From positions 1-51,714 of the IMG/VR virus record IMGVR_UViG_3300043448_000382: a stretch of 51,714 nucleotides of DNA; one strand, written 5' to 3'. Of the stretch, positions 5,375 through 27,100 are shown piece by piece; the first letter of the stretch is position 1; the number at the start of each line of letters is the position of its first letter. The position numbers and the translations under genes are program-made. The stretch is from a virus. The notes below the pieces were generated by a model. That model did no database searches. It saw only the letters and a list, made by a program, of their open reading frames with translations, and had not been told where the DNA came from.

Positions 5375-5389
5375 GATAAATATTATATT

Positions 5390-9608: not shown

Positions 9609-9632
9609 AGGCGCACTTATGTGCGCTTTTTT
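9609..9632 (+). terminator. Rho-independent terminator after major capsid gene
   Basis: GCGCAC / GTGCGC with a TTAT loop (9611-9626) is followed by six T. This GC-rich hairpin stands out in AT-rich surroundings, lies about 30 bases after the capsid stop codon, and marks the end of the head transcription unit. Confidence 0.92.
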
Positions 9633-9711: not shown

Positions 9712-10392
9712 ATGGCTTTAGATCCTTTTAATTCAGTTGGTGGTTATTCAGTTGGCATACCTCCTGTACAAGTTGTTGATCAAAATGGAAATATATTAGG
9801 TAATATTGGTAATATTGTGAACTTAAGTTCACAGGACATAAGTGCAAGCGGAAACATTACTGCAAACACTTTTTATGGCAACTTAATAGGTAACATTGTT
9901 GCTAACATTACTGTACCCGGTGTTAATACATCGGTAATTTTTAATGATTCAGGTCTTGCAAATGCATCAGCTAATTTTACTTTTGATAAAGTTCTTAACA
10001 AAGTTAACGTTACAGGAGCATTAAGTGCAAACACGTTTAGTGTGGGATCCGGTAATTACGAATTAATTACACAAAGCGTAGTGTTTGCAGTTACAGCTAG
10101 TATGTCAACAGATCAAGTTTTACATAGAGTGTTAGCAAATACAATTTGTTCCATTGATTACACTGTTATTGGTACTGATGTGACTTCAAACACAAGACAA
10201 ACTAGTAAATTAGTTGCAAGTGTATTAGGTGGCAACGTAGGTTATTACGAATACGGAACTATTAACATGAACGGTGGTGTAGGTGATTTTAAAGTACAGT
10301 ATAATAGTGGTAATATTGAATTAACTGTTGATCCTCTAACTTCATTTTCTACCAGCTATAAAATAATGGTAACTTCCTATAAAGAGAGTTAA
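9712..10392 (+). CDS. Short fibre-like structural protein (226 aa)
   Basis: The protein has an N-terminal module FNSVGGYSVG..P.QVVDQNGN (about 5-27) shared with the next two gene products. A short Asn/Gly/Ile-rich shaft follows (about 28-120: SASGNITANTFYGN, then NTSVIFNDSGLANASANFTF). A C-terminal domain of about 100 residues (NMNGGVGDFKVQYNSGNIEL near its end) has relatives at the ends of the 798- and 1593-residue proteins. It is effectively the same architecture with most of the shaft missing. Such proteins are tail-fibre or neck/whisker-type components in environmental T4-like phages (family knowledge from memory). Its exact place in the virion is not known. A related gene begins 6 bases after its stop. 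Confidence 0.75.
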   Translation: MALDPFNSVGGYSVGIPPVQVVDQNGNILGNIGNIVNLSSQDISASGNITANTFYGNLIGNIVANITVPGVNTSVIFNDSGLANASANFTFDKVLNKVNVTGALSANTFSVGSGNYELITQSVVFAVTASMSTDQVLHRVLANTICSIDYTVIGTDVTSNTRQTSKLVASVLGGNVGYYEYGTINMNGGVGDFKVQYNSGNIELTVDPLTSFSTSYKIMVTSYKES

Positions 10393-10398
10393 AATTAA

Positions 10399-12795
10399 AT
10401 GGCTATAAAAGCACTAAATTCCGTAGGTGGCTTTTCGGTAGGAGAAAATCCTTTTGTAATAATTCTTTCCAATGGTGACATCACTACAGGTAATGCTAAT
10501 CTAACTGGCAACGTTTTTGCTAATGTTGTATTAACAGACAACTATAGATATGCGAACGGTGATCCAGTTGACTTTCAATTACCAGCAGGTAATCCTTATG
10601 AAATACAGTTTAATAATTTTGGTGATTTTGGTGCAAGTCCTGATTTATTATTTTATCCTGCCAATAGCACTCTTTTATTAAATGGATCAACACAAACAAA
10701 TACGTTAGTAACAGTTAGTACAATATCATCAGGTGGTAATATAACAGCACCTTTCTTTTTAGGAAATGTTATCGGTAACATATCAGGTAATATTGTAGTA
10801 CCTGGAACAAACACTTCTGTTTTATATAATGATAGTGGAAACGCAGGTTCAAGTGATGCATTTCAATTTAATGAAGTCAGTAATGTTTTAACACTTAATG
10901 GTAATTTCTCAGTTCAAAATATTGACAACGCCAATTTAATTACAGCAAACTACTTCAACGGTACACTTACAACTTCAAGTCAACCAAATATAACTAGTTT
11001 GGGAGATTTAACGTCATTATCTGTTATAGGAAATATTATAACAGCAAACGCAAATGTAACTACAAATTTAGATGTAGGTGCTAACTTAAATGTTTCTAAT
11101 ATAAAAGTAAACAGTACAGCAAATATCACTACACTAATAGCAAGTAACCTTTCTTACCCAACAGTTGACGGTTCATCTAACCAAGTTCTCGTAACAGATG
11201 GTAATGGTGTATTAGGGTTTGCAGATGCAAACAACCACTTTATAGCAAATGGTACTAGTAATGTTTACGTTTATAATAATGCTAATGTAACTATAAGTAG
11301 TGCAGGTACGGGTAATGTCATAGTAGTTTCTAATACTGGTTTAAATGTCACAGGATTATTAAGTGTTTCTAGTAACGTTACTGGTTCAAATATAATTACT
11401 GCTGGTATAGTAAGTGCAAATGGAAACGTAACTGGTAATAATTTTTCTGGCAACACACTAAGTGTTGCTGGCAATGTAAACGCAAGTAATCTTTCAGCAA
11501 GTATATTAACCACAACAGCAAATTTATCAGTGATAGGATTTGTTGAAGGCAACCTAACACCAGGTTCAAATAATCAAGCAAACTTAGGAACATCTGGTCA
11601 AACATGGGGCAACTTGTATATAGGCAACGCCATATATGTTGGAAATGCAAGCATTACTCAACTTAACGGTAATGTAATTTTATCAAATGCAAACTTACAA
11701 GGTAATACAGTTGTATCTGTTTTAAGTGTTATTGGTGATACATTTAATCAAAGTAATGTAACAATATCAGGTAACTTAACTGTCAATGGAAATACTAATT
11801 ATATTAATGTAACTAATTTAGCAATTAAAGATCCGTTAATTTCATTAGGTGGAAATGCTAACGGTGCTAATATTGGAGCATATGATGGTAAAGACAGAGG
11901 ATTAATATTACATAACTATTATAGCAATGGATCAGGACCTTATAATCAAGCATTCATTTGGAAAACAGCAAATTTAGAATTTCAAGCAGTATCAAATGTA
12001 ACAAGTTTTGCAAGTGAAATTGTAACTTCAAACGGATTTGCAAATATACGAGGTAATGCATTTATAGGTAACCTAGAAGGCACAGTGCTTCAGGCTAGTC
12101 AAACTAATATTACTACTGTTGGAACACTAACAACTTTAAGTGTTACTGGTAACATTGATACTGCAAATCGTGCCAACGTTGGCTCACTTAAAGCAGCTAA
12201 TCTTCTTTATCCAACAAGTGATGGCAGTGCTAATCAAGTTATTGCAACATACGGTAATGGTGAGTTATTTTTCACCTCTGTTGCAACAAATAGTTTAGTA
12301 AATGGTAATAGTAATGTTGTTGTAAATGCTAATGCAAATGTCACAATAAGTGCAAATGGTGTTGCAAATGTCATTACTGTCACATCAGTTGGTGGTAATG
12401 TAACTGGTAACGTAGTAATAACATCAAACGCAATTGCTAATAACTTAACTGCAAACACAAGAATAAACATAGGAAACACAGCATTAAGCTGGGCAACAAT
12501 AACAACCACATCAACCTCTGCTAATCAAATCATTGCCAGTTTAGATGCTAATGTAGTACGTGGTGCAGAATTTTTAGTAAAGGGTGAAGAAGCAGCTGGT
12601 GGCAAATATACAGTAGTTTCGTTATCGGGAATTCATAATGGAACTTCAGCAAACTATGCAGTATACAGTTCAGTTAATATGGGAGGACAAGTAGGTCAGT
12701 TAAGAGTAATTTATAATTTGGGATTACTTTCATTAGCTGTTACACCTGCCACTAGTAACTCAACTGTTTGGACAACACAATATAGAATGATATAA
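10399..12795 (+). CDS. Repeat-built tail-fibre-like protein (798 aa)
   Basis: The N-terminal anchor-like module is LNSVGGFSVGENPF (about 6-19). The shaft is built from Asn/Thr/Gly/Ser-rich beta-type units, including SQPNITSLGDLTSLSVIGN and its relative SQTNITTVGTLTTLSVTGN. At about 460-540 lies a KDPLISLGG ... DGKDRGLILHNYY module seen in all three large fibre genes of this window. The C-terminal domain (about 705-798) is related to those of its neighbours (NMGGQVGQLRVIYNLG). The composition and unit pattern suggest a trimeric fibrous beta-structure, which is inference. It lies one base before the next gene, so translation is probably coupled. Likely role: part of the host-attachment fibres. 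Confidence 0.8.
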   Translation: MAIKALNSVGGFSVGENPFVIILSNGDITTGNANLTGNVFANVVLTDNYRYANGDPVDFQLPAGNPYEIQFNNFGDFGASPDLLFYPANSTLLLNGSTQTNTLVTVSTISSGGNITAPFFLGNVIGNISGNIVVPGTNTSVLYNDSGNAGSSDAFQFNEVSNVLTLNGNFSVQNIDNANLITANYFNGTLTTSSQPNITSLGDLTSLSVIGNIITANANVTTNLDVGANLNVSNIKVNSTANITTLIASNLSYPTVDGSSNQVLVTDGNGVLGFADANNHFIANGTSNVYVYNNANVTISSAGTGNVIVVSNTGLNVTGLLSVSSNVTGSNIITAGIVSANGNVTGNNFSGNTLSVAGNVNASNLSASILTTTANLSVIGFVEGNLTPGSNNQANLGTSGQTWGNLYIGNAIYVGNASITQLNGNVILSNANLQGNTVVSVLSVIGDTFNQSNVTISGNLTVNGNTNYINVTNLAIKDPLISLGGNANGANIGAYDGKDRGLILHNYYSNGSGPYNQAFIWKTANLEFQAVSNVTSFASEIVTSNGFANIRGNAFIGNLEGTVLQASQTNITTVGTLTTLSVTGNIDTANRANVGSLKAANLLYPTSDGSANQVIATYGNGELFFTSVATNSLVNGNSNVVVNANANVTISANGVANVITVTSVGGNVTGNVVITSNAIANNLTANTRINIGNTALSWATITTTSTSANQIIASLDANVVRGAEFLVKGEEAAGGKYTVVSLSGIHNGTSANYAVYSSVNMGGQVGQLRVIYNLGLLSLAVTPATSNSTVWTTQYRMI

Positions 12796-12796
12796 A

Positions 12797-15700
12797 ATGG
12801 CAATAGTTAAGTTTAATTCAGAAGAAGGTTTTTCAGTAGGATACAATCCAATTGATGTTATAGACGCCAACGGCAACGTTGTGGCTAATGTATTAAACGT
12901 AACTACAAGTGCAGCATTAGGAAGTATTGGTAGTATAACAATATTAGGCGGTAGCAATGGTCAAGCTATTGTTACTGACGGCTTAGGTAATTTAAATTTT
13001 GAAACAATATCAGGTGGAGGCGGAACACCTCAAGGACCATACGGAGCATTACAATTTAATAACTTTGGTGTATTAGGTGGTGATGCTAATTTATATTACA
13101 ATCCTACATTAAACATTTTATATGCTCCTGTGTATAGCGGTGACGCTGCATTATTGTCTAACATACCAGGACCTAATGTTGTTGGTACTGTACCAAACGC
13201 TAACTTTGCAACTTACTCTGATTTAGCTACTGTTTCTACGTTATCATTTTATGTAAGTGAAGCCAATCAACCTAATATCACAAGTGTCGGTTCTCTTACT
13301 GATTTAAGTGTAGTTGGAAACGCAAACATAGGTGAAATAAATTCAGGTAATGTTACCGCTGCAAATTTCTTTATCGGTAACGGTGCTTATATATCATATA
13401 TTGAGGGTAATGCAGTTATTGGAACTGTAGCAAATGCCAATTATGCCGAATATTCACTCAATACAATTAATTCTAATGAAGCAAATGCTGCTATTAATGT
13501 TATAGGTTCAAGTCAACCTAACATCACAGCAGTTGGTAGTTTAGGTAATCTTGTTGTTATTGGTAATGCAAATGTAGACTTTGTTGAAGCAAATGGAATG
13601 ATTAGTAATAGTTCACTCTTAGTTAAGGGTGACACTACAATGTTAGGTAATTTGATTGTATACGGAAACACAATCTATGCAGACGTTACAAGCCTAACAG
13701 TTAAAGATCCAATTATTGAAATGGGTGGTAATCCAAATGGTGACCCATTAACAGCAAACGATACATTTGATCGTGGTTCATTAATGCATTACTACACTAC
13801 ATTACCTGTAGATGCATTTATGGGTTGGGTTAGTGCAAATGCAGAATTCGCAGTCGCAAGTAATGTATCAATGGTTAATAACTCAATTACAATACATGAA
13901 TTGGGTAACCTAAGAGCAAATGTGTTTATTGGTAATGGTGCAGCACTGTCCAATATTACTGCAGCAAATATTGATGGGGAAGTTGCTAATGCAGCGTTTT
14001 CAACAGATGCGAACTTTGCATACTATGCAGGTAATATAACTGAGAATGCACAACCAAATATAACAAGTGTTGGTACATTAATAGATTTAAGTGTCACCGG
14101 CAACATAAATTCAGGTAATGCTAACTTAGGTGATTTAGTATACGGTAATTTCTTTATTGGTGATGGCAGTAACCTAAGTAATATTGACGGCGGTAATGTT
14201 ACGGGTACTGTAGCCAACGCATCGTATGCTGTTAGCACAGACACCGCAAATACAGCAGCCACTGTTACAACTGCAAGTCAACCAAATATAACAAGTGTAG
14301 GCACACTAACAACACTTACTGTTAGTGGCAACGTAGACGCAACAAATGCCAACTTAGGTGATATTGTTACTGCCAACTATTATGTAGGTAATGGATATAA
14401 TTTATCGGATATTGCAGGTGCTAATGTTTCAGGCACTGTAGCAAACGCAAATTATGCATTATATGCTGACAATATATTAACAGCAAGCCAACCAAATATT
14501 ACAAGTGTAGGCACATTAACAAGTTTAAGTGTAAGTGGTAACATTGATGCAGCTAATTCTAATTTAGGTAATGCAGTTATCGCAAATTATTTTATTGGTA
14601 ATGGCTCACAACTAACATATTTACCTGCAGGTAATATTTCAGGAGTTGTTGCTAACGCAGTGTATGCAGCCAATGCAGGTAATGCAGGATACGCATATGA
14701 TGCATTAATGGCGAACACATCAAATACAGTCACAAACGCAGCACAACCTAATATAACAAGTGTAGGTACATTAACACTATTAAGTGTTACAGGAAATATA
14801 ACTAGTGGTAATGCTGATTTAGGAAACACTGTAGTTGGTAATTATTTTGTAGGTAGCGGTAATACATTATCAAATATATATGGACCAAATGTAACAGGTA
14901 TTGTTGCTAATGCAAATTTTGCAGCGAATAGTGAATTAGCCAACACATCTAATAGTGCAGTCATTGCAGGCACAGTCACTACCAATGCTCAACCAAACAT
15001 AACAAGTGTTGGTACACTAACAAGTATTAGCGTAACAGGCAATGCTAATATTGGTAACTTGAATAGCACTGCTAATGGTAGCTTTGTTGGTAACGTAACA
15101 GCAAGTACATTTATAGGTAACTTTACCGGAACAATATTAAGTAATATCCCAGCACCAGGTAATAATTATGAAATTATTTTTAATAGTTCAGGTAATACAG
15201 GTGCTAGCAATGCATTGACATTTAATAACTCAACAAACGTAGCAACAATAAGTGGTAATCTATCTGTAACAACAAACATTACAAGAGGTGGTAAAACTGT
15301 ACCAACATATTCGGTTCAGTCTGGTGCGCCCAGTAATCCACAAGCAGGTGATGGTTGGTATGATACAGACAATGATAGAACGTATACCTACACATATGAT
15401 GGCTTAACCTATCAATGGGTAGATGTAACAAGCGGTTATTTGAACGCAAATACTGCTGCTGTTGGTAACACATTAGCATTACGTGATATTAATGGTAATG
15501 TAGCAGCAAATGTATTTACGGGTAACAATGCTATATTGACTAACCTTACAGTCAATACTAGCATAATAGGTAATGTTGCTACATTTGCAAATGCAGTATA
15601 TGCTAACGGTAACGTTACGCAACCACATCAATTAGCTACTAAAGAATATGTTGATCAACAAACAACTGCAGGGCTTCACATTCATGCACCAGTTCTTGTA

Positions 15701-17578
15701 AAAACAACAGGAAATTTAAATGCAACATATAACAATGGCGGAACAGCACTTACCGTAACAGATATCACATCCAATAGTATTTTTACTACATCAGTAAATC
15801 ATAACTTACTGATAGACGACACAATAGTTCCTGCTACAACTACAAATGGATTAACTGCGGGCACCGCATATTTTGTTGCTGCTACTCCTGCGCTAAATCA
15901 ATTCACATTAAGTACGACTTTTCATGGTGCCCAAGCTAATACATTTACAAATGGAACAAGTTTAACTATATCAGTTACTGCCAATCCAGGTATAGGGGCA
16001 ACATTAACAAATGCAGGTACACAGGCTGCATTACAAATTGATACGATCAATATGTCTGTAAATGATCGTGTTTTAGTTGCAAGTCAAACAAATGCTTTTG
16101 AAAATGGTGTTTACGTTGTAAGCAATGTAGGAAATATTTCTACTAATTGGGTATTAACCAGAGCTAGTGATGCAGATCAATACCATCCACAGGATACAAA
16201 TGGTTTAGGTGAGGGCGATTATTTTTATGTTGAGCAAGGTGCAACTGGAGCAGGTGATAGCTTTGTATTGACCACTGAAGGTGTTATAATAATTGGTACA
16301 ACTAATTTAACGTATACTTTGTTTAGTGCTGCTGTAGTTTATACTGGCGTAAGTCCAATAGTAATCACAGGTCAACAAATTAGTCTAGCTAACCTAACTG
16401 GTACAGGTGATGTTGTTGTACTTGCAAACACACCAACACTTATCACTCCTGTAATCGGAGATGCAACTGGCACAACATTAAGTCTAACTGGTAATCTCAC
16501 AGCAGCTAATGCAAATTTAGGCAACGCAGTTACAGCCAACTTCTTTATTGGAAGTGGTAACAACTTAAGCAATATTCAAGCAACAAGTATTACAGGCACT
16601 GTTGCTAATGCAAATTATGCTGCATATGCAGGTGATGTAGTTAATGCAAGTCAATCTAATATTACAAGTGTAGGTACACTAACAAGTTTAAGTGTAAGTG
16701 GTAACGCTAACATTGGTAATATAGGCACCGGTATAATAAGTGCAACTGGCAATATTACAAGTAGTAATATAAACACTGGCGTTATAAGTGCAACTGGTAA
16801 TGCTGTTATTGCTAACATAGATACAGGTGTAGTAAGTGCTACTGGTAACATAACAAGTGCGAATCTTAACACTGGTATAATAAGCGCAAGTGGTAACATA
16901 ACAGTAGCAAATGTTAACACAGGTATTGTTAGTGCAAGTGGCAATGTTACTGGCGCGAACATACTAACAAGTGGATTAATAAGTGCTAGTGGAAATTTAA
17001 CTAGTAATAATGTTAACACAGGAATAGTAAGTGCTAGTGGAAATATCACAAGTGCTAATTTGAACACTGGGATAATAAGTGCAAGTGGTAACATAACTGG
17101 CGCCAACATATTAACAAGTGGAGTAATTAGTACTTCGGGTAATGTTGATAGCGGTAATATTAACACAGGATTTATAAGTTTAACAGGTAATATAAATGTA
17201 GGTGGTAATATTTCATTAGTTGGCAATGTTACAGCAAACGTTATAACAGCTAATAGTTTAGGAAGCAAAGATTTTAGAAGTCTAAGAAGTAATGTTGTAG
17301 TAACCACAAATACAGTTGTTGATGAGTTTGCGGTTTCAACTTACCGAACCGCTAAATACATTGTACAAGCACAGGGAGACATTGGCTTTCAAAGTGTTGA
17401 AGTATTATTAGTGCATGACAATAGTGACAGTTACATTACTATATTTGCCAGTGTATATAGTAATGCAGAAGTTATAACAATTAGTAGTAATGTAGTAACA
17501 GGGAACGCAAAATTATACGCTACGGCGTCGGGAGCAAACACAACAGTTAATTTATTGAGCATGTATGTACTAGACTAA
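12797..17578 (+). CDS. Large repeat-built tail-fibre-like protein (1593 aa)
   Basis: The start carries the same module as its neighbours (FNSEEGFSVGYNPIDVID, about 6-23). The shaft has many units of about 70 residues of the type ANYFIGNG..LS.I.GANVTG / TVANA.YA / SQPNITSVGTLTSLSVSGN, and a KDPIIEMGG ... FDRGSLMHYY module at about 288-370. Around 850-1195 sits a distinct globular region: DGWYDTDNDRTYTY, ATKEYVDQQTTAGLHIHAPV, NDRVLVASQTNAFENGVYVV and WVLTRASDAD. This region is common in environmental phage fibres (from memory). Then comes a 16-residue tandem array (about 1304-1465) and a C-terminal domain with YRTAKYIVQAQGDIGFQSVE (about 1515-1534), related to those of the two preceding products. 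The ATG comes one base after the upstream stop. Confidence 0.82.
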   Translation: MAIVKFNSEEGFSVGYNPIDVIDANGNVVANVLNVTTSAALGSIGSITILGGSNGQAIVTDGLGNLNFETISGGGGTPQGPYGALQFNNFGVLGGDANLYYNPTLNILYAPVYSGDAALLSNIPGPNVVGTVPNANFATYSDLATVSTLSFYVSEANQPNITSVGSLTDLSVVGNANIGEINSGNVTAANFFIGNGAYISYIEGNAVIGTVANANYAEYSLNTINSNEANAAINVIGSSQPNITAVGSLGNLVVIGNANVDFVEANGMISNSSLLVKGDTTMLGNLIVYGNTIYADVTSLTVKDPIIEMGGNPNGDPLTANDTFDRGSLMHYYTTLPVDAFMGWVSANAEFAVASNVSMVNNSITIHELGNLRANVFIGNGAALSNITAANIDGEVANAAFSTDANFAYYAGNITENAQPNITSVGTLIDLSVTGNINSGNANLGDLVYGNFFIGDGSNLSNIDGGNVTGTVANASYAVSTDTANTAATVTTASQPNITSVGTLTTLTVSGNVDATNANLGDIVTANYYVGNGYNLSDIAGANVSGTVANANYALYADNILTASQPNITSVGTLTSLSVSGNIDAANSNLGNAVIANYFIGNGSQLTYLPAGNISGVVANAVYAANAGNAGYAYDALMANTSNTVTNAAQPNITSVGTLTLLSVTGNITSGNADLGNTVVGNYFVGSGNTLSNIYGPNVTGIVANANFAANSELANTSNSAVIAGTVTTNAQPNITSVGTLTSISVTGNANIGNLNSTANGSFVGNVTASTFIGNFTGTILSNIPAPGNNYEIIFNSSGNTGASNALTFNNSTNVATISGNLSVTTNITRGGKTVPTYSVQSGAPSNPQAGDGWYDTDNDRTYTYTYDGLTYQWVDVTSGYLNANTAAVGNTLALRDINGNVAANVFTGNNAILTNLTVNTSIIGNVATFANAVYANGNVTQPHQLATKEYVDQQTTAGLHIHAPVLVKTTGNLNATYNNGGTALTVTDITSNSIFTTSVNHNLLIDDTIVPATTTNGLTAGTAYFVAATPALNQFTLSTTFHGAQANTFTNGTSLTISVTANPGIGATLTNAGTQAALQIDTINMSVNDRVLVASQTNAFENGVYVVSNVGNISTNWVLTRASDADQYHPQDTNGLGEGDYFYVEQGATGAGDSFVLTTEGVIIIGTTNLTYTLFSAAVVYTGVSPIVITGQQISLANLTGTGDVVVLANTPTLITPVIGDATGTTLSLTGNLTAANANLGNAVTANFFIGSGNNLSNIQATSITGTVANANYAAYAGDVVNASQSNITSVGTLTSLSVSGNANIGNIGTGIISATGNITSSNINTGVISATGNAVIANIDTGVVSATGNITSANLNTGIISASGNITVANVNTGIVSASGNVTGANILTSGLISASGNLTSNNVNTGIVSASGNITSANLNTGIISASGNITGANILTSGVISTSGNVDSGNINTGFISLTGNINVGGNISLVGNVTANVITANSLGSKDFRSLRSNVVVTTNTVVDEFAVSTYRTAKYIVQAQGDIGFQSVEVLLVHDNSDSYITIFASVYSNAEVITISSNVVTGNAKLYATASGANTTVNLLSMYVLD
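16705..17190 (+). repeat. Tandem 48-bp coding repeat (16-aa units)
   Basis: About ten consecutive units of the form GNITSANLNTGIISAS, read in the frame of the 1593-residue fibre gene. Each is 16 residues (48 bases), with an occasional 17-residue unit of type GNVTGANILTSGLISAS. Units differ at many third positions, so the repeat is clearer in protein than in DNA. Such regular units suggest one turn of a beta-helix or triple-beta shaft per unit. The array is a natural place for length change by unequal recombination. Confidence 0.85.
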
Positions 17579-17613: not shown

Positions 17614-20600
17614 ATGACAACAAAAAACTTTGTGGTGAAAAACGGTCTTACGACCGGTAATATCACATTAGATGCATTAACAGATATAATAACAACAACA
17701 GGAAATGTTTCTGCTGCCAACCTTCTTACTGGCGGTCAAGTTTCTGCAACAGGTAATATCACAGGTAATAATCTAAGTACAGGTAATATCATTAGTGCTG
17801 GTGGAAATATTACTGGTGCAAATATTCTAACAATTGGAAATGTAAGCGCAAGTGGAGCAGTATTAGGTTCAAACGTTTACGTTTCATCATTGGGTTCAGA
17901 ACAAATAGCGATAGCATTTACAGGAGGTCAATTAGTAGGTGGTATTGACTTACGTTGGGAATTTGCTAATGCTGCTCTTTGGACAACAAATTTAAAATCA
18001 AATGGTTATATTTCTACTACCGGAAATGTTACTGGTGCGAATATATTAACCGGTGGTGATTTAAGTGCTACTGGATTACTAACTGTAGGAAACATAAGTA
18101 CCACGGGTAATATCAGTGCTAGTAATATAACATATAACGGCACATTATCAACATCTGGTAATATAAACTTTACCGGAGCAAATGCATATTTCTCTAATGT
18201 AGCAAACTTACGCATACCTGGTGGTACTGCAAATTATGTACTTACAACAGATGGTGCAGGCAACTTAAGTTGGCAAGTAACTGGTTCAGGTAATGGTAAC
18301 GCTAACGTAGCTGGTGCAAATACAGAAGTTCAGTTCAATGATGGCGGCGCATTAGGTGCAAGTGCTAATTTTACTTTTGATAAAACGACAAATACGTTAA
18401 CAGTTACAAATTATTCAGGTAATGGTGCAGGACTATCTGCTATTGCTGGAGCTAATGTTACCGGTACTGTGGCAAACGCAACTCATGCTTGTACGGCTAA
18501 CGTAGTAACAGATGGTACACAAAGCAATATCACTGCAGTCGGTACACTTACTAGTTTAAGCAGTTCAGGAAATATTGCAGGTGCAAATCTATTAACAGAT
18601 GGATTACTTAGTGCAAATGGTAATGTTACTGGTAACTATATTTTAGGAAATGGTTTTTACTTAACCGGTGTTAGTACAAACAGTACAAGCATAATAAATG
18701 GTAATAGTAATGTAGTTGTAGGGGCAAATAGTAATATTACAGTCGGTATTGCAGGTAATGCTAATGTTGTTGTATTTACAGATACAGGCGTAAATGTCAC
18801 AGGGTATGTTAATCTTTCGGCAAATCTTAGTGCAGCAAATGCCAACTTAGGCAATGCTGCAACTGCTAATTTCTTTATTGGTAGTGGCAATAATTTAAGC
18901 AACATACAAGGTAGCAATGTTACTGGTGCTGTGGCCAATGCTACACATGCTAGCACTGCAAACACAGTAGTTGATGCAAGTCAACCAAATATTACTTCAG
19001 TTGGGACATTATCAAGTTTAAGTGTAAGCGGCAATGCTAATATAGGTAATGTTAACACAGGGATTATAAGCGCAAGTGGAAATTTATCTGCCGCTAATGC
19101 AAATTTAGGCAATGCGGCTACTGCAAATTATTTTATTGGAAACGGTTCGAGTTTATCAAGTATTGCAGGAGCAAACGTAACAGGTACTGTTGCTAATGCC
19201 ACACATGCAAATACATCGAATACTGTAGTTGATGCAAATCAATCTAATATTACCGCTTTAGGCACACTAACAAATTTAAGTGTTAGCGGTAATGCAAACG
19301 TAGGTAATAATGTTAATGTTTCAGGTAATGCTGTTATTACTGGTAATCTAGTTGTCGGGGGCAATACAGTTTATATTAATGTTGAAACATTAAGGGTAGA
19401 AGATCCAATAATTGAATTAGGAGGTGGACCTAACGGAGATCCGTTAACCACTGATGACGGTAAAGATAGAGGTACATTATTGCATTATTATGCGGGCGCA
19501 GCTATAGATGCGTTTATGGGTTGGGATGAAAGTAATGCTGAATTTGCTTTAGGTAGTAATGTAACCGTAACTAATGATGTCGTAACATTTAACACATTTG
19601 GTAATCTTAGACTAAGTGGATTAATTGCTAACACAGGTAATTTTACTGGAAACCTAAACGCTAACAATATCAATGCTAGCAATATAGTAAGTGCTACCGG
19701 TAATGTTAAAACAAGTGGGTTCTTTGTGGGTGACGGTGGATATATTAGCAATATTACTGTCGCCGCAGGCTCATATATTGTTAATGGAACAAGTAATGTT
19801 CATTTGGATAGTAATGGTAATTTACATGTTGACATCGCAGGCAATACTGACAAATTAGTAGTTACTGGTACCGGTGTCAATGTAAATGGATATCTAACTG
19901 CATCGGGCAATTTAGAATCCGGCAATGCTAATTTAGGCAACGCGGCAACAGCAAATTATTTCATAGGTAGCGGCAATAACTTAAGCAATGTACAAGGTAG
20001 TAATGTATCAGGTGCAGTTGGTCTTGCAACATACGCAACAACAGCAAATGCAGTAGCCGGTGCTAATGTATCAGGAGAAGTAGCTAATGCTAATTATTCA
20101 AGTTATACAAATGTAGCAAACACTGCAAATGCAGTAGCCGGTGCCAATGTATTAGGAGCAGTGGCATACGCAACAACAGCAAATGCAGTAGCCGGTGCAA
20201 ACGTCACTGGTACAGTAGCAAATGCAAACTATGCTGCATACGCAGGTAATATAACTATTGCAGGCCAAAGCAATATCACTGCAGTTGGTACACTAACAAG
20301 TTTAAGTGTAAGCGGGAACATTGATGCAAATAACTTGAACACCTCAAATATTGTAAGTGCTACTGGTAATATTAAAACAAGTGGATTTTTTGTAGGTGAT
20401 GGCGGCTATATTAGTAACATTGTGGTTGCAGCAGGAAGTTATATTGTAAATGGTAATAGTAATGTACACCTAGATACTGATGGCAATTTACATGTCGATA
20501 TAGGTGGAATAACAGATAGATTACTTGTTACAACTACAGGTATTATTGCAAATAGTACAATTAGTGCAATTGGGAATATAACAGGAGCAAACCTATTAAC

Positions 20601-23478
20601 AGGTGGATTAATTAGTGCAACTGGTAATTTAACAAGCGGAAATGTTAATACCGGACGTGTCAGTGCAAGTGCAAATATTACTGGCGCTAATTTACTAACA
20701 GGTGGATTAATTAGCGCAACTGGTAATTTAACAAGCGGAAATGTTAATACAGGAATCGTATTTGCAAGCGGAAATGTAACTGGTGCAAATCTTAACACCG
20801 GTGGATTAATAAGTGCTAGTGGAAATATTAATGTAGGTAATGTAAACACAGGTATTGTTTCTGCAAATGGTAATGTTACTGGCGGTAATATATTAACTGC
20901 CGGAGAAATTAGCGGTACTGGTAATATAACTACGGCAAATTATTTTATTGGTAATGGATATTATTTAACTGGTATTGACGCAGGTATACAAGATCAAATT
21001 GCAAATGGAAATAGTAATGTTTACATACCAACAGCTAATGGTGATGTAACCATAACAGCAAGTGGCAATGCAAATATTGTTGTTGTAACTGGCACAGGCG
21101 CAAATATATTAGGAACTGCTAATATAACAGGTAACGCTAACGTTGGAAATATTGGCACAGGTATATTAACTGCAACTAGTAATGTAACAGGTGCTAATCT
21201 ATTAACTGCAGGTCAAGTTAGTGCATCAGGTAATGTTACCGGTAATTTTATATTGGGTAATGGTTATTATTTAACTGGATTAAATGTTGGTGTACAAGAT
21301 AAAATAGCAAATGGTAATAGTAATGTCTACATACCAACAGCTAACGGTGATGTAACTATTACAGCAAGTGGTAATGCAAACATTGTCGTTGTTACAGGAA
21401 CAGGCGCTAATGTCACTGGTTATGCAAATATTTCAGGTAATTTATCTGCAGGTAATATTACTTACACAGGAGAATTAAGTACGGCAGGTAATATTAATTT
21501 TACTGGGGCTAATGCATATTTCTCTAACGTAGCAAATATTAAAATACCAGGTGGCACTGCAAATTACGTATTAACTACAGACGGAGCAGGTAATTTAAGT
21601 TGGCAAGTAACAGGTACAGGTAACGGTAACGCTAATGTTGCTGGTACTAATACACAAGTTCAATTCAATGACGCTGGGGTCTTAGGTGCAGATGCTAATT
21701 TTACTTTTGATAAGGTAACAGAAACACTTAGCGTAACAAATATTTCTACTGCAGGTAATGCAGTAATTGCAGGCAATCTAACAGTAAGCGGCACAACTGA
21801 ATATATTAATGTAACAAATCTTGCTATCAAAGATCCAATTATTAGTATTGGCAGAGGAACAAATAATGCTCCATTAACATCTGATGATGGTAAAGATCGT
21901 GGTGAGCAATTATGGTATTACTCAGGTAGCGAGAAATCTGGGTTCATTGGTTACGACAATTCAGCAGGTAAAATAATTGCTGCAACGGATGTAACTATAT
22001 CAAGTGAAGTTGTTACGGTTAGCACTTATGGTAATTTTGTAGTGGGTGGATTAGAAGCAGCAACAGTTAGTGCATCGGGAAATATAAATGGTGCTAATGT
22101 ATTAACTGGCGGGCTAATAAGTGCAACAGGCAACATTGATGCTAATAATGTTAATGTGGGAAACATTATTAGTGCTGCAGGCAATATTACAGGTAATTAC
22201 ATCTTAGGCAATGGTGCTTTCTTAACTGGAGTAGCTACAGGTACACCTTCAAATATTGCGAATGGAACCAGTAATATTAATATACCAGTAGCAGATGGTA
22301 ATATAAACACTAGCGTTGGTGGTGCAGCTAATGTGTTTGTTGTTACATCAACTGGTGCTAATATTACCGGTACTGCAAATGTTTCAGGTAATCTTTCTGC
22401 TGGTAATATAAACGTAGTAAATGCATTAAGTGCTAGTGCAAACATAACTGGTGCTAACTTAAATACTGGTAATAATATTAGTGCTGCTGGCACAATAACT
22501 GCAAATAATATAAATTTAGGAAATGTTGTATCAGCAGGTGGCAATGTCACTGGTGCTAATTTATTAACTGGCGGATTGATAAGTGCAACAGGCAATATAA
22601 ATGGTAACAACATTATTGCTAGTGGTAATCTAAGTGCAACGTCTGGTATTTATGGCACTATTCAAACAGCATCTCAACCTAATATTACAAGTTTAGGTAC
22701 ACTAACTGGATTGACAGTTGGACCGAATAGTAGTGTTATATTATCAGGTAATACTGGTTATGTAAGGGCAAACAGTATTCAAGGACGTGACGGTACGCAA
22801 TCCATTTACATGTACTATGGCAATGTAAGCGGAGCAGTAGCAACTGTAACTGATTTGACTGTTGGTGCTAGTGGTTCCGGTAATTTAGTAATAGCAAATG
22901 GTGCAGCTAATATAAGCGGCAATATTAATTTTACTGGTGCTAATGCATATTTTTCAAATGTAGGTAACTTACGTATACCGGGCGGATCAGTAGGATATTT
23001 CCTTAAAACAGATGGTTCTGGTAATTTAAGTTGGGATCAAGCATCAGCCACACCAGGAGGTAGTCCAACCGAACTACAATTTAATAATACAGGTTTATTT
23101 GGTGGAACGGCTAATTTAGAATTTGACACAACCGAATATAGACTATCTATTCAAAATTATTCTATTGTAGTTCAAGCATTAGGAGGTGTTTCTGGAGCTA
23201 CTACAGTTAATATTACCAACGGATGTTATGTAACTGCTGTAGCATCTGGAATTACAACTTGGATATTTAGTTTTAGCGCACCGTCTGGAAATGCAAGTGG
23301 ATTCGTGTTAGAGTTAACGAACGGTGGACTTTACACTGTTAACTGGCCATTAAGTGTAAAATGGCCCGGAGGAACGGCTCCTGATTTAACTTCTTCTGGA
23401 ACTGACGTTTTAGTTTTTATAACAAACGATAATGGAACTACTTGGCGTGGCGCAGTATCTATGCTTAACAGTCTGTGA
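17614..23478 (+). CDS. Very large repeat-built tail-fibre-like protein (1954 aa)
   Basis: The N-terminus differs from the three preceding products (TKNFVVKNGLTTGNITLD). The shaft mixes the 70-residue NYFIGNG/SQPNITSVGTL units and 16/17-residue units (GANLLTGGLISATGN). Two KDPII/EDPII ... DGKDRG modules lie at about 586-665 and 1392-1475. A module with GNINFTGANAYFSNVANLRI appears three times (about 185, 1295 and 1770). The C-terminal domain (about 1850-1954) contains FVLELTNGGLYTVNWPLSVK and VLVFITNDNGTTWRGAVSML, a recurrent end domain of aquatic phage fibre proteins (from memory). The start is the first in-frame ATG after a 35-base gap with GGGGA upstream. This is the only gene here that ends in TGA. 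It probably forms a long shaft of the attachment apparatus. Confidence 0.82.
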   Translation: MTTKNFVVKNGLTTGNITLDALTDIITTTGNVSAANLLTGGQVSATGNITGNNLSTGNIISAGGNITGANILTIGNVSASGAVLGSNVYVSSLGSEQIAIAFTGGQLVGGIDLRWEFANAALWTTNLKSNGYISTTGNVTGANILTGGDLSATGLLTVGNISTTGNISASNITYNGTLSTSGNINFTGANAYFSNVANLRIPGGTANYVLTTDGAGNLSWQVTGSGNGNANVAGANTEVQFNDGGALGASANFTFDKTTNTLTVTNYSGNGAGLSAIAGANVTGTVANATHACTANVVTDGTQSNITAVGTLTSLSSSGNIAGANLLTDGLLSANGNVTGNYILGNGFYLTGVSTNSTSIINGNSNVVVGANSNITVGIAGNANVVVFTDTGVNVTGYVNLSANLSAANANLGNAATANFFIGSGNNLSNIQGSNVTGAVANATHASTANTVVDASQPNITSVGTLSSLSVSGNANIGNVNTGIISASGNLSAANANLGNAATANYFIGNGSSLSSIAGANVTGTVANATHANTSNTVVDANQSNITALGTLTNLSVSGNANVGNNVNVSGNAVITGNLVVGGNTVYINVETLRVEDPIIELGGGPNGDPLTTDDGKDRGTLLHYYAGAAIDAFMGWDESNAEFALGSNVTVTNDVVTFNTFGNLRLSGLIANTGNFTGNLNANNINASNIVSATGNVKTSGFFVGDGGYISNITVAAGSYIVNGTSNVHLDSNGNLHVDIAGNTDKLVVTGTGVNVNGYLTASGNLESGNANLGNAATANYFIGSGNNLSNVQGSNVSGAVGLATYATTANAVAGANVSGEVANANYSSYTNVANTANAVAGANVLGAVAYATTANAVAGANVTGTVANANYAAYAGNITIAGQSNITAVGTLTSLSVSGNIDANNLNTSNIVSATGNIKTSGFFVGDGGYISNIVVAAGSYIVNGNSNVHLDTDGNLHVDIGGITDRLLVTTTGIIANSTISAIGNITGANLLTGGLISATGNLTSGNVNTGRVSASANITGANLLTGGLISATGNLTSGNVNTGIVFASGNVTGANLNTGGLISASGNINVGNVNTGIVSANGNVTGGNILTAGEISGTGNITTANYFIGNGYYLTGIDAGIQDQIANGNSNVYIPTANGDVTITASGNANIVVVTGTGANILGTANITGNANVGNIGTGILTATSNVTGANLLTAGQVSASGNVTGNFILGNGYYLTGLNVGVQDKIANGNSNVYIPTANGDVTITASGNANIVVVTGTGANVTGYANISGNLSAGNITYTGELSTAGNINFTGANAYFSNVANIKIPGGTANYVLTTDGAGNLSWQVTGTGNGNANVAGTNTQVQFNDAGVLGADANFTFDKVTETLSVTNISTAGNAVIAGNLTVSGTTEYINVTNLAIKDPIISIGRGTNNAPLTSDDGKDRGEQLWYYSGSEKSGFIGYDNSAGKIIAATDVTISSEVVTVSTYGNFVVGGLEAATVSASGNINGANVLTGGLISATGNIDANNVNVGNIISAAGNITGNYILGNGAFLTGVATGTPSNIANGTSNINIPVADGNINTSVGGAANVFVVTSTGANITGTANVSGNLSAGNINVVNALSASANITGANLNTGNNISAAGTITANNINLGNVVSAGGNVTGANLLTGGLISATGNINGNNIIASGNLSATSGIYGTIQTASQPNITSLGTLTGLTVGPNSSVILSGNTGYVRANSIQGRDGTQSIYMYYGNVSGAVATVTDLTVGASGSGNLVIANGAANISGNINFTGANAYFSNVGNLRIPGGSVGYFLKTDGSGNLSWDQASATPGGSPTELQFNNTGLFGGTANLEFDTTEYRLSIQNYSIVVQALGGVSGATTVNITNGCYVTAVASGITTWIFSFSAPSGNASGFVLELTNGGLYTVNWPLSVKWPGGTAPDLTSSGTDVLVFITNDNGTTWRGAVSMLNSL
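20560..20920 (+). repeat. Tandem 16/17-residue coding repeat with near-identical 99-base copies
   Basis: Units of type GNITGANLLTGGLISAT alternate with GNLTSGNVNTGIVSAS. The stretch starting GGTGGATTAATTAG at 20602 recurs at 20701 with only a few changes over about 50 bases, an offset of 99 bases (33 codons). These are the most DNA-similar tandem copies I noticed in the fibre genes and suggest a fairly recent duplication. Confidence 0.8.
20985..21420 (+). repeat. Duplicated segment of about 125 bases, offset about 306 bases
   Basis: The coding stretch for ANGNSNVYIPTANGDVTITA and what follows occurs at about 20988-21112 and again at about 21294-21418. The protein is nearly identical, with scattered synonymous changes. 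It lies inside the 1954-residue fibre gene and marks an internal duplication of a larger unit. Confidence 0.8.
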
Positions 23479-23486
23479 GATATATT

Positions 23487-24098
23487 ATGGCAAATTATGT
23501 TTTAGTTGAAAATAATCAAATTGTAGAATATCATGATTTATTGCCACGTACATGGAGACATGTCAGTGGATTACATTTACTTAAAGATAATGAGGAGATG
23601 TTAAATCAAAACGGGTGGTATACTATTCGCAAAGTAGAAATTGCATATAATAATCAAACTCATTACTTAGACGGATATGAATACAACATTGAAGATAATC
23701 AAGTTTTTGAAATACCAGTTTTAAAAGAAATTATTTACAGTAATGTACCTGATGAGCAAGAAGAAATAAGATTTAATATTGAATTAGCTAACGTAAGAAA
23801 CACTAGAGATCAATTATTAAGAGAATCTGATTGGACACAAATGGCTGACGTACAACAGATGCGTAGTCAAGAATGGAAAAATATTTGGGCAAATTATAGA
23901 CAAGAACTTAGGGATGTTCCTAACAAGTGCATTTCTGGTGAAATAAATATATACATGGTTAATTGGCCAAACACACCTGAATCAGTTTATAATCCTATAG
24001 ATCCTACCATACCAAACTCAGATCCTGTGGAAAATAATGACTCTATTGAAAACAATGATCAACTAAATTCAGATCCAATAGAACCTTCACCTGAATAA
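23487..24098 (+). CDS. Tail-fibre assembly chaperone-like protein (PF16778-like)
   Basis: The product has 203 residues from the ATG at 23487. A GTG at 23475 would add four residues but would overlap the upstream gene; ATG after its stop gives the natural MANYVLVENNQIVEYHDLLP. The middle part has RNTRDQLLRESDWTQMADVQ and EWKNIWANYRQELRDVP (about 112-150). This is the R..LL..SDWTQ ... W..YRQ.LRD.P signature of the phage tail assembly chaperone family (Pfam PF16778 from memory). The last 35 residues are acidic and Asn/Pro-rich. Its place directly after the fibre genes and before the RCC1 genes fits a helper that folds or trimerises one of them. Which one is not known. Confidence 0.75.
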   Translation: MANYVLVENNQIVEYHDLLPRTWRHVSGLHLLKDNEEMLNQNGWYTIRKVEIAYNNQTHYLDGYEYNIEDNQVFEIPVLKEIIYSNVPDEQEEIRFNIELANVRNTRDQLLRESDWTQMADVQQMRSQEWKNIWANYRQELRDVPNKCISGEINIYMVNWPNTPESVYNPIDPTIPNSDPVENNDSIENNDQLNSDPIEPSPE

Positions 24099-24107
24099 AA
24101 GTTACAT

Positions 24108-27100
24108 ATGTTATTAAAAGAGATTCTATTAACCTCAACGCAATATAACATACAAAAAACTTCAAATAAGTTATTTGTGTGGGGTTTAGGTACGTCAGGA
24201 CAGGATACAACAGTTGACTACACTTTTTCTTTGGCACAATTAAGTGCAGGTGCAAGCCATGCTATCGCACTAACTAGTGACAACAGGATCTTAACTTGGG
24301 GATTAAATAATACTGGTCAATTAGGCATCAATGACACCATCAATAGAAGTTATCCAGTACAGGTTGGATTAAAGGGTTGGAAAAGAGTTGCAGCTGGTGA
24401 CAGCCATAGTGTTGCTATAAGAGGAGATGGATCACTTTTTGCATGGGGATTAGGAACATCAGGTCAGTTAGGATACGGTATTGCAGGAACTAGATCAAGT
24501 CCTGTTCAAGTTACTACACCTTCTATAAGTTGGTTAACTTTAGCTGCAGGAGTAAATTCAACACTTGGCATTAGTAATGACTTAAAACTTTATGCATGGG
24601 GCTTAAACAATGCGGGTCAATTAGGTGATACTACTACCATAAGTAAATCAAGTCCTGTGCCAATTGGTACTAGTAGTTGGAGCCAAGTCGCAGTAGGTGC
24701 ATCTTTTGCAGGTGGTCTATTAGTCGGAGGCGAACTTTTTACTTGGGGACTTAATAGTTCAGGCCAATTAGGTTTAGGTGATACGACAAATAGAAACAGT
24801 CCTGTTCAAGTTGGATCAAGCTTATGGTTAAAACTATCAATGGGCGCAGGACATACTGTCGCTATAAGAGATGATAGTTTAGGATATGCATGGGGCTTAA
24901 ACAATGCATATCAACTAGGTGATGGTACAACTACAAATAGAAATAGTCCAGTTCAGATTGACACAACATTAGTAACAAGTTGGAAATCTGTTTCTGCAGG
25001 TACTAGTTTTACTTTAGGCATTGGTGCTGATGAAGGAACAAATAATAAATTATATGCTTGGGGTTTAGCAAGTTCTTATCAATTAGGCACAACGGTTACA
25101 ATTAACAGAAGTGTTCCAATACAAATTACAACAGGTAGTTGGTCACTCATAGCCGCAGGCGGCCTTTTCAGCGTAGCAACGAATGATAATAAATTTTTAT
25201 ATCATTGGGGTTCAGGTGCAGGTGGTGTTGGAGGTGACGGTAGAACATTAACACGTTCAAGTCCAACACTAGTTTCTTTCAGTCAAACAATCAGTCAAAG
25301 TAGCCCTATACAAATAGGTACTGATTCTTGGTCTACAATTTCAGCAGGCACTAACTTTTTTGCAGGTATAAAAAGTGATGGATTGTTATATTCGTGGGGA
25401 GTAAACAATGTAGGGCAATTGGGTATCAATTCTACATTGAACAGAAGTAGTCCAGTTCAAATAGGTACTAGTAGTTGGACTTCAGTTAAGGCAGGTTCTA
25501 GTGCGTCAATAGCAATAAGGTCCGACAGCACACTATGGGGTTGGGGTAATGTATTAGACTACTATGGCGGAGTGCCACCACAAAGAAGTTGGATTGACAC
25601 AGTAGGACATTCTAATGCTAAATTTGCACTTAGAAGTGATAATACGATTTGGGGATGGGGACAAAATAATAACGGAATATTGAGTACAAATGATACGATC
25701 AATAGAAGTAGTCCGGTTCAAATTGGTTCAGCAATAAATTGGAAAAAATTAGGTGCTCCTGCAGATTTCTATTCCACTTTTTATGCAATTGCAACTGATG
25801 ATACAGCATATGCAGTTGGTTCAGGATTAAATGGAGAATTTGGTAATAATACTGTAATAAGCCGGTCTAATATCACTCAAGTAATGCCTGATAAAACTTG
25901 GAGTGAAATTGGTGGTGGAATGGGTATTACTACTGATGGTAAACTTTGGACATGGGGATACAATATAAATGGCACGTTGGGTATAGGCGATACAATAAAC
26001 AGATCAAGTCCTACTCAAATTTTATCTGGAACAAGTTTTACTTTCATCGCAGGTGGATATAACCATGTATTTGCAATTTCTACTACAGGAACACTATATG
26101 GCATAGGAAGAAATACTGCAGGAGAATTGGGAAATAATACAACAATAAGCAGATCAAGTCCAGTAACTTTAGTTGCACCATTTGATACGTATAGTTGGAT
26201 ACAAGTTGCTTCTGGAGCAGCAGATGCAACCTCTACTGCAGGTCACACACTTGCAATAAGAGATGACTTTACACTATGGAGTTGGGGACTTAATAATGTT
26301 GGTCAGTTAGGTATTAATACGACAATAAACAGATCAAGCCCAGTAACTTCTATTGCAAGTCCAAATAGTTGGCTACAAATTGCAGCAGGTAATTCACGTT
26401 CAGTTGCCATAAATTATAGTGGCTTTATGTTAGCATGGGGATTAAATAGTGCCTCACAACTAGGTGACGGCACATCAATTAACAGATCAAGTCCTGTAGT
26501 TACAGACAGTGCAGCCGCAAACGTTTATAGATACATAAATTTATCTGCAGATTGGTTTGGAACTGCAGCCATACGTGAAGATGGTACACTTTATGTTTGG
26601 GGTACGAATAACCTCGGAAATTTAGGCGACGGCACAACTGTAGGTAAAACACTTCCAACAGTTCAGAACGCAGTTACACAACTATCAAGTCCAGTGCAAA
26701 TTGGTTCAGCATCAAACTATACGCAAATTTCAGCAGGAAATTCTTTCTACGGAGCAATTGATTCAACTGGCGCACTTTATACATGGGGAATAAACACCAG
26801 CGGACAATTAGGACAGGCAACTCCTGCAAACAATACAAGATTAATACCATCAAGATTACGAGATGCATTATCTAATGATAATACAAGTAGTTGGACATTA
26901 GTATCTGCTGGCAATAATCATGCATTAGCTATAACAGTTGATGGCAAATTATTTGCATGGGGTAATAACGCATCTAGCCAACTTGGAGACGATACTGTTG
27001 TCTCAAAATCAATTGCAGTTCAAATTGGATTATCTTATGCTGGTGCCGCAATAACTAGTTGGCGATATGCAAGTGCGGGTAATGCACACTCTTTAGCAAT

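Follow-up and report, generated by a model that had tools for sequence, protein, structure and literature searches.

Does a row of fibre genes with similar ends and ever longer products record a history of serial duplication with shaft expansion? This question is raised by a virus record of 51,714 bases (IMGVR_UViG_3300043448_000382), called the window here, which comes from an uncultivated T4-type jumbo phage. Three consecutive genes of the window encode putative fibre proteins of 226, 798 and 1593 residues (P1, P2 and P3). The original prediction held that they share their N-terminal start, have related C-terminal domains, and arose by serial duplication while the shaft grew from almost none to more than 1300 residues. 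N-terminal scores, C-terminal profiles and predicted folds support paralogy of proteins that are alike in their ends and unlike in their shafts. The history of growth is not supported: among relatives, shaft length is a lineage-level variable and the short-to-long ladder a lineage state, and the cluster appears to evolve as a mosaic, with repeat turnover in the shafts and exchange of tips between genes and phages. The parts are located in Table 1.

The kinship is clearest at the N-terminus. Pairwise alignment of the first 35 residues gave scores of 72 (P1-P2), 97 (P1-P3) and 73 (P2-P3), where shuffled sequences averaged about 22. None of 2000 shuffles reached these scores for any pair, and neither did any of 126 interior windows of P2 or 285 of P3, so that the predicted common start stands. 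The modules are all about 33 residues long and run into repeats. A profile of the module gave three strong matches (E 4e-11 or better) in each of three relatives of 127, 223 and 303 kb, all at the cluster. It was found in 11 of 15 records searched at E<=0.01 (weakly in G010 and G012), and at E<=1 in none of nine cultured phages (four jumbo phages, three cyanophages, one Pelagibacter phage and one Methylophilales phage, CBB included). Nothing among PDB sequences matched the profile at E<=10.

At the C-terminus, the domains are related directly for P1 and P2, by profile for P2 and P3, and by fold for P1 and P3. The last 100 residues of P1 and P2 scored 120, which no shuffle of 2000 reached; this is the one pair for which alignment of the C-terminal ends is significant. 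For P2 and P3 the score was 56, equalled in 3 of 2000 shuffles, and the likeness is unconvincing because interior windows reach it as well (5/272 and 2/113). P1 and P3 have no pairwise likeness in this part, the score of 30 being reached by 1136 of 2000 shuffles. The claim of related C-terminal domains therefore does not hold by pairwise alignment for P1 and P3, but it does by fold. When C-terminal profiles of the relatives were compared by gene class (A, B and C, to which P1, P2 and P3 belong), A against B gave 98.6% (E 6e-16) and B against C 91.9% (E 7e-7). Class A against C directly gave 2.9%, and an unrelated tip profile used as control 0.3%. A pooled A+B profile gave 87.2% with C, 0.6% with the unrelated tip, and 1.9% with the best of 40 column-shuffled controls.

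In predicted models, the C-terminal domains of both P1 and P3 have a fold like that of the C-terminal barrel of T4 gp9, the long tail fibre connector. The P1 model is usable only in this part (blocks of predicted local distance difference test, pLDDT, of 62-83 over residues 121-220), and the P3 domain has a mean pLDDT of 79. Among solved structures, gp9 was the top match of the P1 domain (Z 8.7, 109 residues, root-mean-square deviation (rmsd) 3.2), tied with an Acinetobacter phage tailspike end (6c72, Z 8.1, within 1 of the top). It was also the top match of the P3 domain (Z 9.5, 92 residues, rmsd 2.8), the next rows standing at 7.2. Lower down, both domains match other tailspike ends and a baseplate protein of a Klebsiella phage. 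The two models also have many matches in common among proteins of cyanophages and uncultured phages, and the same predicted domain occurs in many fibres of cyanophages and uncultured Caudovirales (for example E3SJ01 of Synechococcus phage S-SM2), whereas the N-terminal module was not found in the three cyanophage records searched. According to excerpts of PMC10253068, the barrel of gp9 has two tasks, to trimerise and to attach the long tail fibres, and the gp9-like domain of gp529 in phage RaK2 is read by its authors as likely to help in trimerisation. By the same reading, the gp9-like domain here may aid trimerisation.

The likeness to gp9 does not extend to its N-terminus, since the gp9/gp10 N-terminal family PF07880 is absent from the Pfam matches at E<=0.1 of P1 to P3 and of the next gene product, P4. 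In relatives, it was above the cut-off in 2 of 10 records, both of them cyanophages, and gave weak matches below the cut-off in G002, G006 and Vibrio phage 2.275.O. The lack of this family above the cut-off in relatives searched had prompted the idea that P1 replaces gp9. The idea was dropped, because P3 ends in such a barrel too and its presence does not set P1 apart. Other family searches gave little. P1-P3 have no Pfam family above the cut-off and no PHROGs family at E<=0.001, P1 has no match among 50,697 phage records at E<=0.01, and no enzyme family was found in the repeat shafts by Pfam. Against the PDB, a class A profile found one chain at E 0.96 and a class B tip profile one chain at E 0.22. 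In PHROGs, one of nine class A proteins matched (phrog_8068, E 0.0024), 20 class A tips matched nothing, and ten class B proteins matched four families with one member each, including head decoration and tail fiber protein.

Between the ends, product lengths differ widely, as predicted, but P1 is not almost shaftless, for about 80 residues separate its two ends. In sequence anatomy and conservation pattern the proteins look like fibres, with a short N-terminal module, a repeat shaft and a C-terminal cap domain. A module of the form NTxVxFNDSG...TFDK lies between the ends of P1 and occurs once each in P2 and P3 and twice in P4. Some shaft stretches are common to the window fibres and cyanophages. 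P3 matches 46 records overall, and its internal module of 258 residues is common to fibre proteins of other phages, with a best row of 54.3% in two pieces in Roseobacter phage CRP-603.

The predicted family of three fits the reading frames that fill positions 9712-17578 exactly, but a probable fourth member, P4, lies just outside. The genes are tightly packed, with 6 nt between P1 and P2, 1 nt between P2 and P3, and 1 to 35 nt overall. P4 starts with a sequence different from those of P1-P3. Its class in relatives (class D), however, compares with class C in the N-terminal profiles at 92.6% (E 4.6e-7), in register from residue 1, and the score of 30.8 stands against 12.6 for the best of 40 column-shuffled controls. 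The class D profile against a joint A+B+C profile gave 36%, or 17% with more D members, and the D profile drew scores of up to 21.7 from 11 interior class B windows; for these reasons the C-D link alone is taken as support. A P3-type C-terminal domain was assigned to 14 of 19 class D genes tabulated, with a tip profile of five rows, one of them itself a D tip. Residues 1854-1950 of P4 match phrog_9017, tail fiber protein. P4 is probably a family member through its N-terminus.

In the close relatives, all of them IMG/VR contigs and a sample from capped scans (two of which kept the best 80 matches), the fibre genes stand in the co-linear order A-B-C(-D), and each class has an N-terminus of its own. 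The nearest neighbour stood at the same row position for 61 of 65 genes from 31 loci, the gene's own locus and rows more than 85% identical being left out. The four exceptions are two class B genes (one stands first, with no class A found), one divergent third gene and one lone gene. Because position is kept so consistently, the classes predate the divergence of these phages. N-terminal identity averages 54% within class A, 65% within B and 46% within C, as against 40-42% between classes. A full A-B-C-D set was seen in 8 of the 59 tabulated loci, many of them truncated.

Length does not follow this constancy. The products span 226-1573 (class A), 680-1894 (class B) and 121-2642 amino acids (aa; class C). 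A is shorter than B in 29 of 30 contigs with complete genes, the exception being L082, where the class B frame has 91 aa and yet the class B match continues downstream over the whole protein. B is shorter than C in only 8 of the 22 contigs in which the two genes are complete, and the full order A<B<C is found in 6 of 16 triads with near copies collapsed. A first, smaller set of relatives had given this order in 6 of 7 complete triads (near copies included), a result overturned by the wider set. The window belongs to the minority with a long C, and the short C frames of 121 aa (L146) and 355 aa (L192) may be broken. As length is free within classes and B<C is mostly not kept, the ladder is not the footprint of serial duplication.

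The order of A and B proves little by itself. All 24 collapsed pairs have A<B, but random re-pairing averages 22.3 of 24 and yields all 24 in 1.4% of cases. The rank correlation of A and B lengths is 0.38 (p 0.067), in tests that ignore relatedness, and the coupling is weak. Class A measures 226-243 aa in 11 of 28 rows of the capsid tree and 439-1573 aa elsewhere, when the 1889-aa protein of L011 is excluded; in the long class A proteins of L139, L155 and L157 the class A tip was not recognised. The short forms are clustered on this unrooted tree, with three changes needed, and one origin is compatible.

B and C fall into two states, one with long C (B 680-1091, C 1209-2642 aa) and one with long B (B 961-1841, C 121-1034 aa). 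Their lengths are inversely related (Spearman -0.61 in 16 triads; -0.53 in all 21 pairs, p 0.013). Within the states the inverse relation is gone (+0.43, n=7; +0.25, n=14), so that it may rest on a few changes common by descent. The states bring to mind an adsorption apparatus in tiers, each class having its own socket and each virion one long-reach fibre of the B/C pair, with the long role switching between B and C. This is an improbable extension. If it were true, a phage that switches the long role would keep anchors and caps fixed and move reach between sockets.

How lengths change can be seen in close pairs. P3 differs from its counterpart in L084 by small indels in repeats at residues ~1230-1460, and P4 by larger pieces, the longest of 86 and 33 residues; the window has tandem repeats (48 to 147 bp) in two places (Table 1). 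P1 shows no indels against four relatives, and P2 single-residue indels only. Divergence in P2 is internal: by 60-residue blocks, identity to L084 is 90% in the first, 42-55% in the worst middle ones and 100% in the last, and to its nearest relative L086 it is 100, 75 and 94% (first, middle, last).

The tips, too, are exchanged. An unrelated C-terminal domain is present on class B genes of seven contigs (L008, L013, L026, L027, L035, L120 and L148), and in L011 a single 1889-aa protein joins a class A start to this same tip. In the window itself, the nearest kin of P1 is P3 by its N-terminus and P2 by its C-terminus. Conflicting kinship and swapped tips, together with the P3 stretch that matches fibre proteins of distant phages, point to a mosaic history and away from stepwise duplication with shaft growth. 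Serial duplication with a growing shaft was rejected as a general account, since length varies per class and its order is not kept, while the classes are co-linear and older than the split. Swapped tips in several relatives would also suit a store of alternative fibres, from which the phage uses a single one at any time while the rest act as recombination donors. However, a store would need neither order nor class, and the same ordered set with class-specific N-termini is kept across many phages, and in the window its genes lie 1 to 35 nt apart; we regard a store as very improbable. As a separate observation, an unrelated, strongly conserved C-terminal domain, SKFD...NGSDG..LGG..., caps fibres in nine loci (L008, L011, L013, L019, L026, L027, L035, L037 and L064), and the next gene in all nine starts with QxVDLLxKxxxGVxKT or a close variant.

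The four genes are likely expressed from one late transcription unit starting after the capsid gene. The motif GATAAATA stands before P1, and in the window no such motif stands before P2, P3 or P4, which makes a single unit likely. We take the motif to resemble the T4 late promoter. Counting near copies, 26 of 31 loci have a match to [TG]ATAAATA no more than 80 bp before their first fibre gene, and the whole window has three motif copies on the + strand. Terminator-like sites are also present, with 12 found in the region and 7.3 expected. Another GATAAATA at 5375, directly after the portal gene and before a 72-aa open reading frame (ORF) and the head genes, is possibly another late promoter.

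What would such proteins do? On balance, the evidence somewhat favours several co-expressed trimeric adsorption fibres in separate sockets, each with a fixed anchor and cap and a shaft evolving by repeat turnover. P1, P2 and P3, and probably P4, would be paralogous adsorption-fibre proteins made together from one late unit. Each chain would trimerise through its C-terminal gp9-like barrel and dock on the virion by its short class-specific N-terminal module. There would be one socket per class, with fibres of different reach side by side on the tail; an own socket per class is most likely because N-terminal sequence is kept by class while shaft length changes freely. Shaft length would change as repeat modules are gained or lost, and tips would pass between genes and phages. 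The gene after P4 encodes a predicted tail fibre assembly chaperone. A multi-fibre cluster with shared anchors and modular shafts is of a known kind, here neatly ordered and otherwise ordinary.

Another arrangement is a branched adsorption complex in which one protein is a baseplate-bound organiser and the others dock on it, as in CBA120, RaK2 and phiKp24. RaK2 (Alcyoneusvirus) is likewise a jumbo phage with several fibre genes, gp526-gp534, and in excerpts of PMC10253068 nine fibre proteins with conserved N-terminal domains are placed in its long tail fibres, with a gp9-like C-terminal domain on gp529. CBB is counted among the Rak2-like jumbo phages, with RaK2 as type (PMC5259590), and phiKp24 has hyperbranched fibres (PMC9700779). 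However, the N-terminal domains of RaK2 are CBA120-like and several of its fibre bodies are depolymerase beta-helices, where the window has a 33-residue module and repeat shafts. The organisers of the three phages have, as far as the excerpts of PMC10253068 and PMC9700779 tell, a clearly longer N-terminal region with docking domains. In the window all modules are equally short, although a docking domain elsewhere in the shafts is possible, and no organiser docking family is listed for P1-P4 in Pfam at E<=0.1. This argument from anatomy is the main one and is not decisive; a branched complex is unlikely, though it is the strongest competitor to fibres in separate sockets.

Several points weigh against separate tail fibres. 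Foldseek found no solved structure for P1 at E<=0.001, the fold matches of Z 8-10 are modest, and a common fold is by itself no proof of function. The N-terminal module has no reliable fold, because the P1 model is poor outside the C-terminal domain (mean pLDDT 50), and P4 of the window lacks the class C type of tip. In addition, the cluster adjoins head genes and one of ten class B proteins matches a head decoration family (phrog_2647), so that the proteins might be head fibres that decorate the capsid instead of the tail. The start of class A lies 106 to 4574 bp downstream of the capsid gene in the 41 loci where both were found, most of them chosen by the capsid gene, and filaments on both capsid and tail are described for phAPEC6 (PMC7247149); the gain from the head decoration match is small. 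Against head fibres stand the chaperone after P4 and the example of CBB, in which gp260 and gp261, annotated as tail fibre and tail fibre assembly protein, are three and four genes after the capsid gene. The likeness to CBB is one of place, as the N-terminal module was not found in its record at E<=1; its hair-filament genes could not be assigned by its authors, according to excerpts of PMC5259590. Head fibres are rather doubtful, more so than a branched complex.

Table 1. Location of the fibre genes, their parts and adjoining features in the window
Feature	Coordinates	Strand	Remark
Terminator-like hairpin and T run between capsid gene and fibre cluster	9611..9631	+	consensus match only
GATAAATA, late-promoter-like motif, 34 bp 5' of P1	9678..9685	+	
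P1, class A fibre, 226 aa: N-terminal module, ~80 aa shaft, C-terminal gp9-like domain	9712..10392	+	
P1 N-terminal module, 33 residues	9712..9810	+	
P1 C-terminal domain, residues 114-226, fold like T4 gp9 C-terminal barrel	10051..10389	+	predicted model
P2, class B fibre, 798 aa	10399..12795	+	
P2 N-terminal module	10399..10497	+	
P2 C-terminal domain, kin to those of P1 and P3	12448..12792	+	profiles
P3, class C fibre, 1593 aa	12797..17578	+	
P3 N-terminal module	12797..12895	+	
P3 internal module, residues 945-1202, common to other phages' fibre proteins	15629..16402	+	
Tandem repeats of 48/96/147 bp in P3 shaft, site of length changes against L084	16689..17178	+	
P3 C-terminal domain, fold like T4 gp9 C-terminal barrel	17282..17575	+	predicted model
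P4, class D fibre, 1954 aa, N-terminus probably kin to class C	17614..23478	+	
Tandem repeats of 48 to 147 bp	16689-17178 and 20597-20930		
Tail fibre assembly chaperone (Phage_tail_APC)	23475..24098	+	PF16778, E 8.5e-15

The assignment of the virus follows from capsid kinship and head gene order. The capsid protein shares 64-68% identity with those of Vibrio phage 2.275.O, PA5oct, CBB, GAP32 and others (30 listed of 2493 records). A family search recognised portal, head protease and major head families upstream of the fibre genes, and the order portal, small ORF, ~286-aa ORF, protease, ~368-aa ORF and capsid is that of CBB and PA5oct. In relatives, putative homing endonuclease ORFs and other small genes stand between the capsid gene and the fibre cluster (for example L077 1079-1882, L014 11308-12102 and L021 11317-12096), while the window has none. 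The ORFs resemble homing endonucleases by their motifs; two begin like KHFIYKTTHxNGKYYxGRHS, with ends resembling RWHGxNC. Six contigs with more distant capsids (78-87% identity; L054, L062, L064, L068, L072 and L081) have another gene row after the capsid, without the A-B-C set: one ORF carries MGRP close to the N-terminus, the next LGNGxSR, and further ones follow.

Downstream, the chaperone ORF and P4 share a 4-nt overlap. Behind them are two adjacent RCC1-repeat giants, one of 2364 aa (24108-31202) and one of at least 6837 aa (31203-51713), open at the contig end, with Laminin_G_3 domains also present in the last third of the latter. RCC1 was found in 1 of 14 relative records, each possibly a fragment; this relative, G001, has its matches in open frames of 1985 and 4525 aa. 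A DNA-ordering role was suggested for the RCC1 proteins of phAPEC6 (PMC7247149). The place of the giants behind the fibre genes fits a role at the virion surface at least as well as one in DNA ordering.

Host range in jumbo phages depends on clusters of several fibre genes, and only a few cultured phages have had theirs dissected. With class-specific anchors and caps and with free shafts, the clusters of this group offer a natural series for asking what shaft length does.

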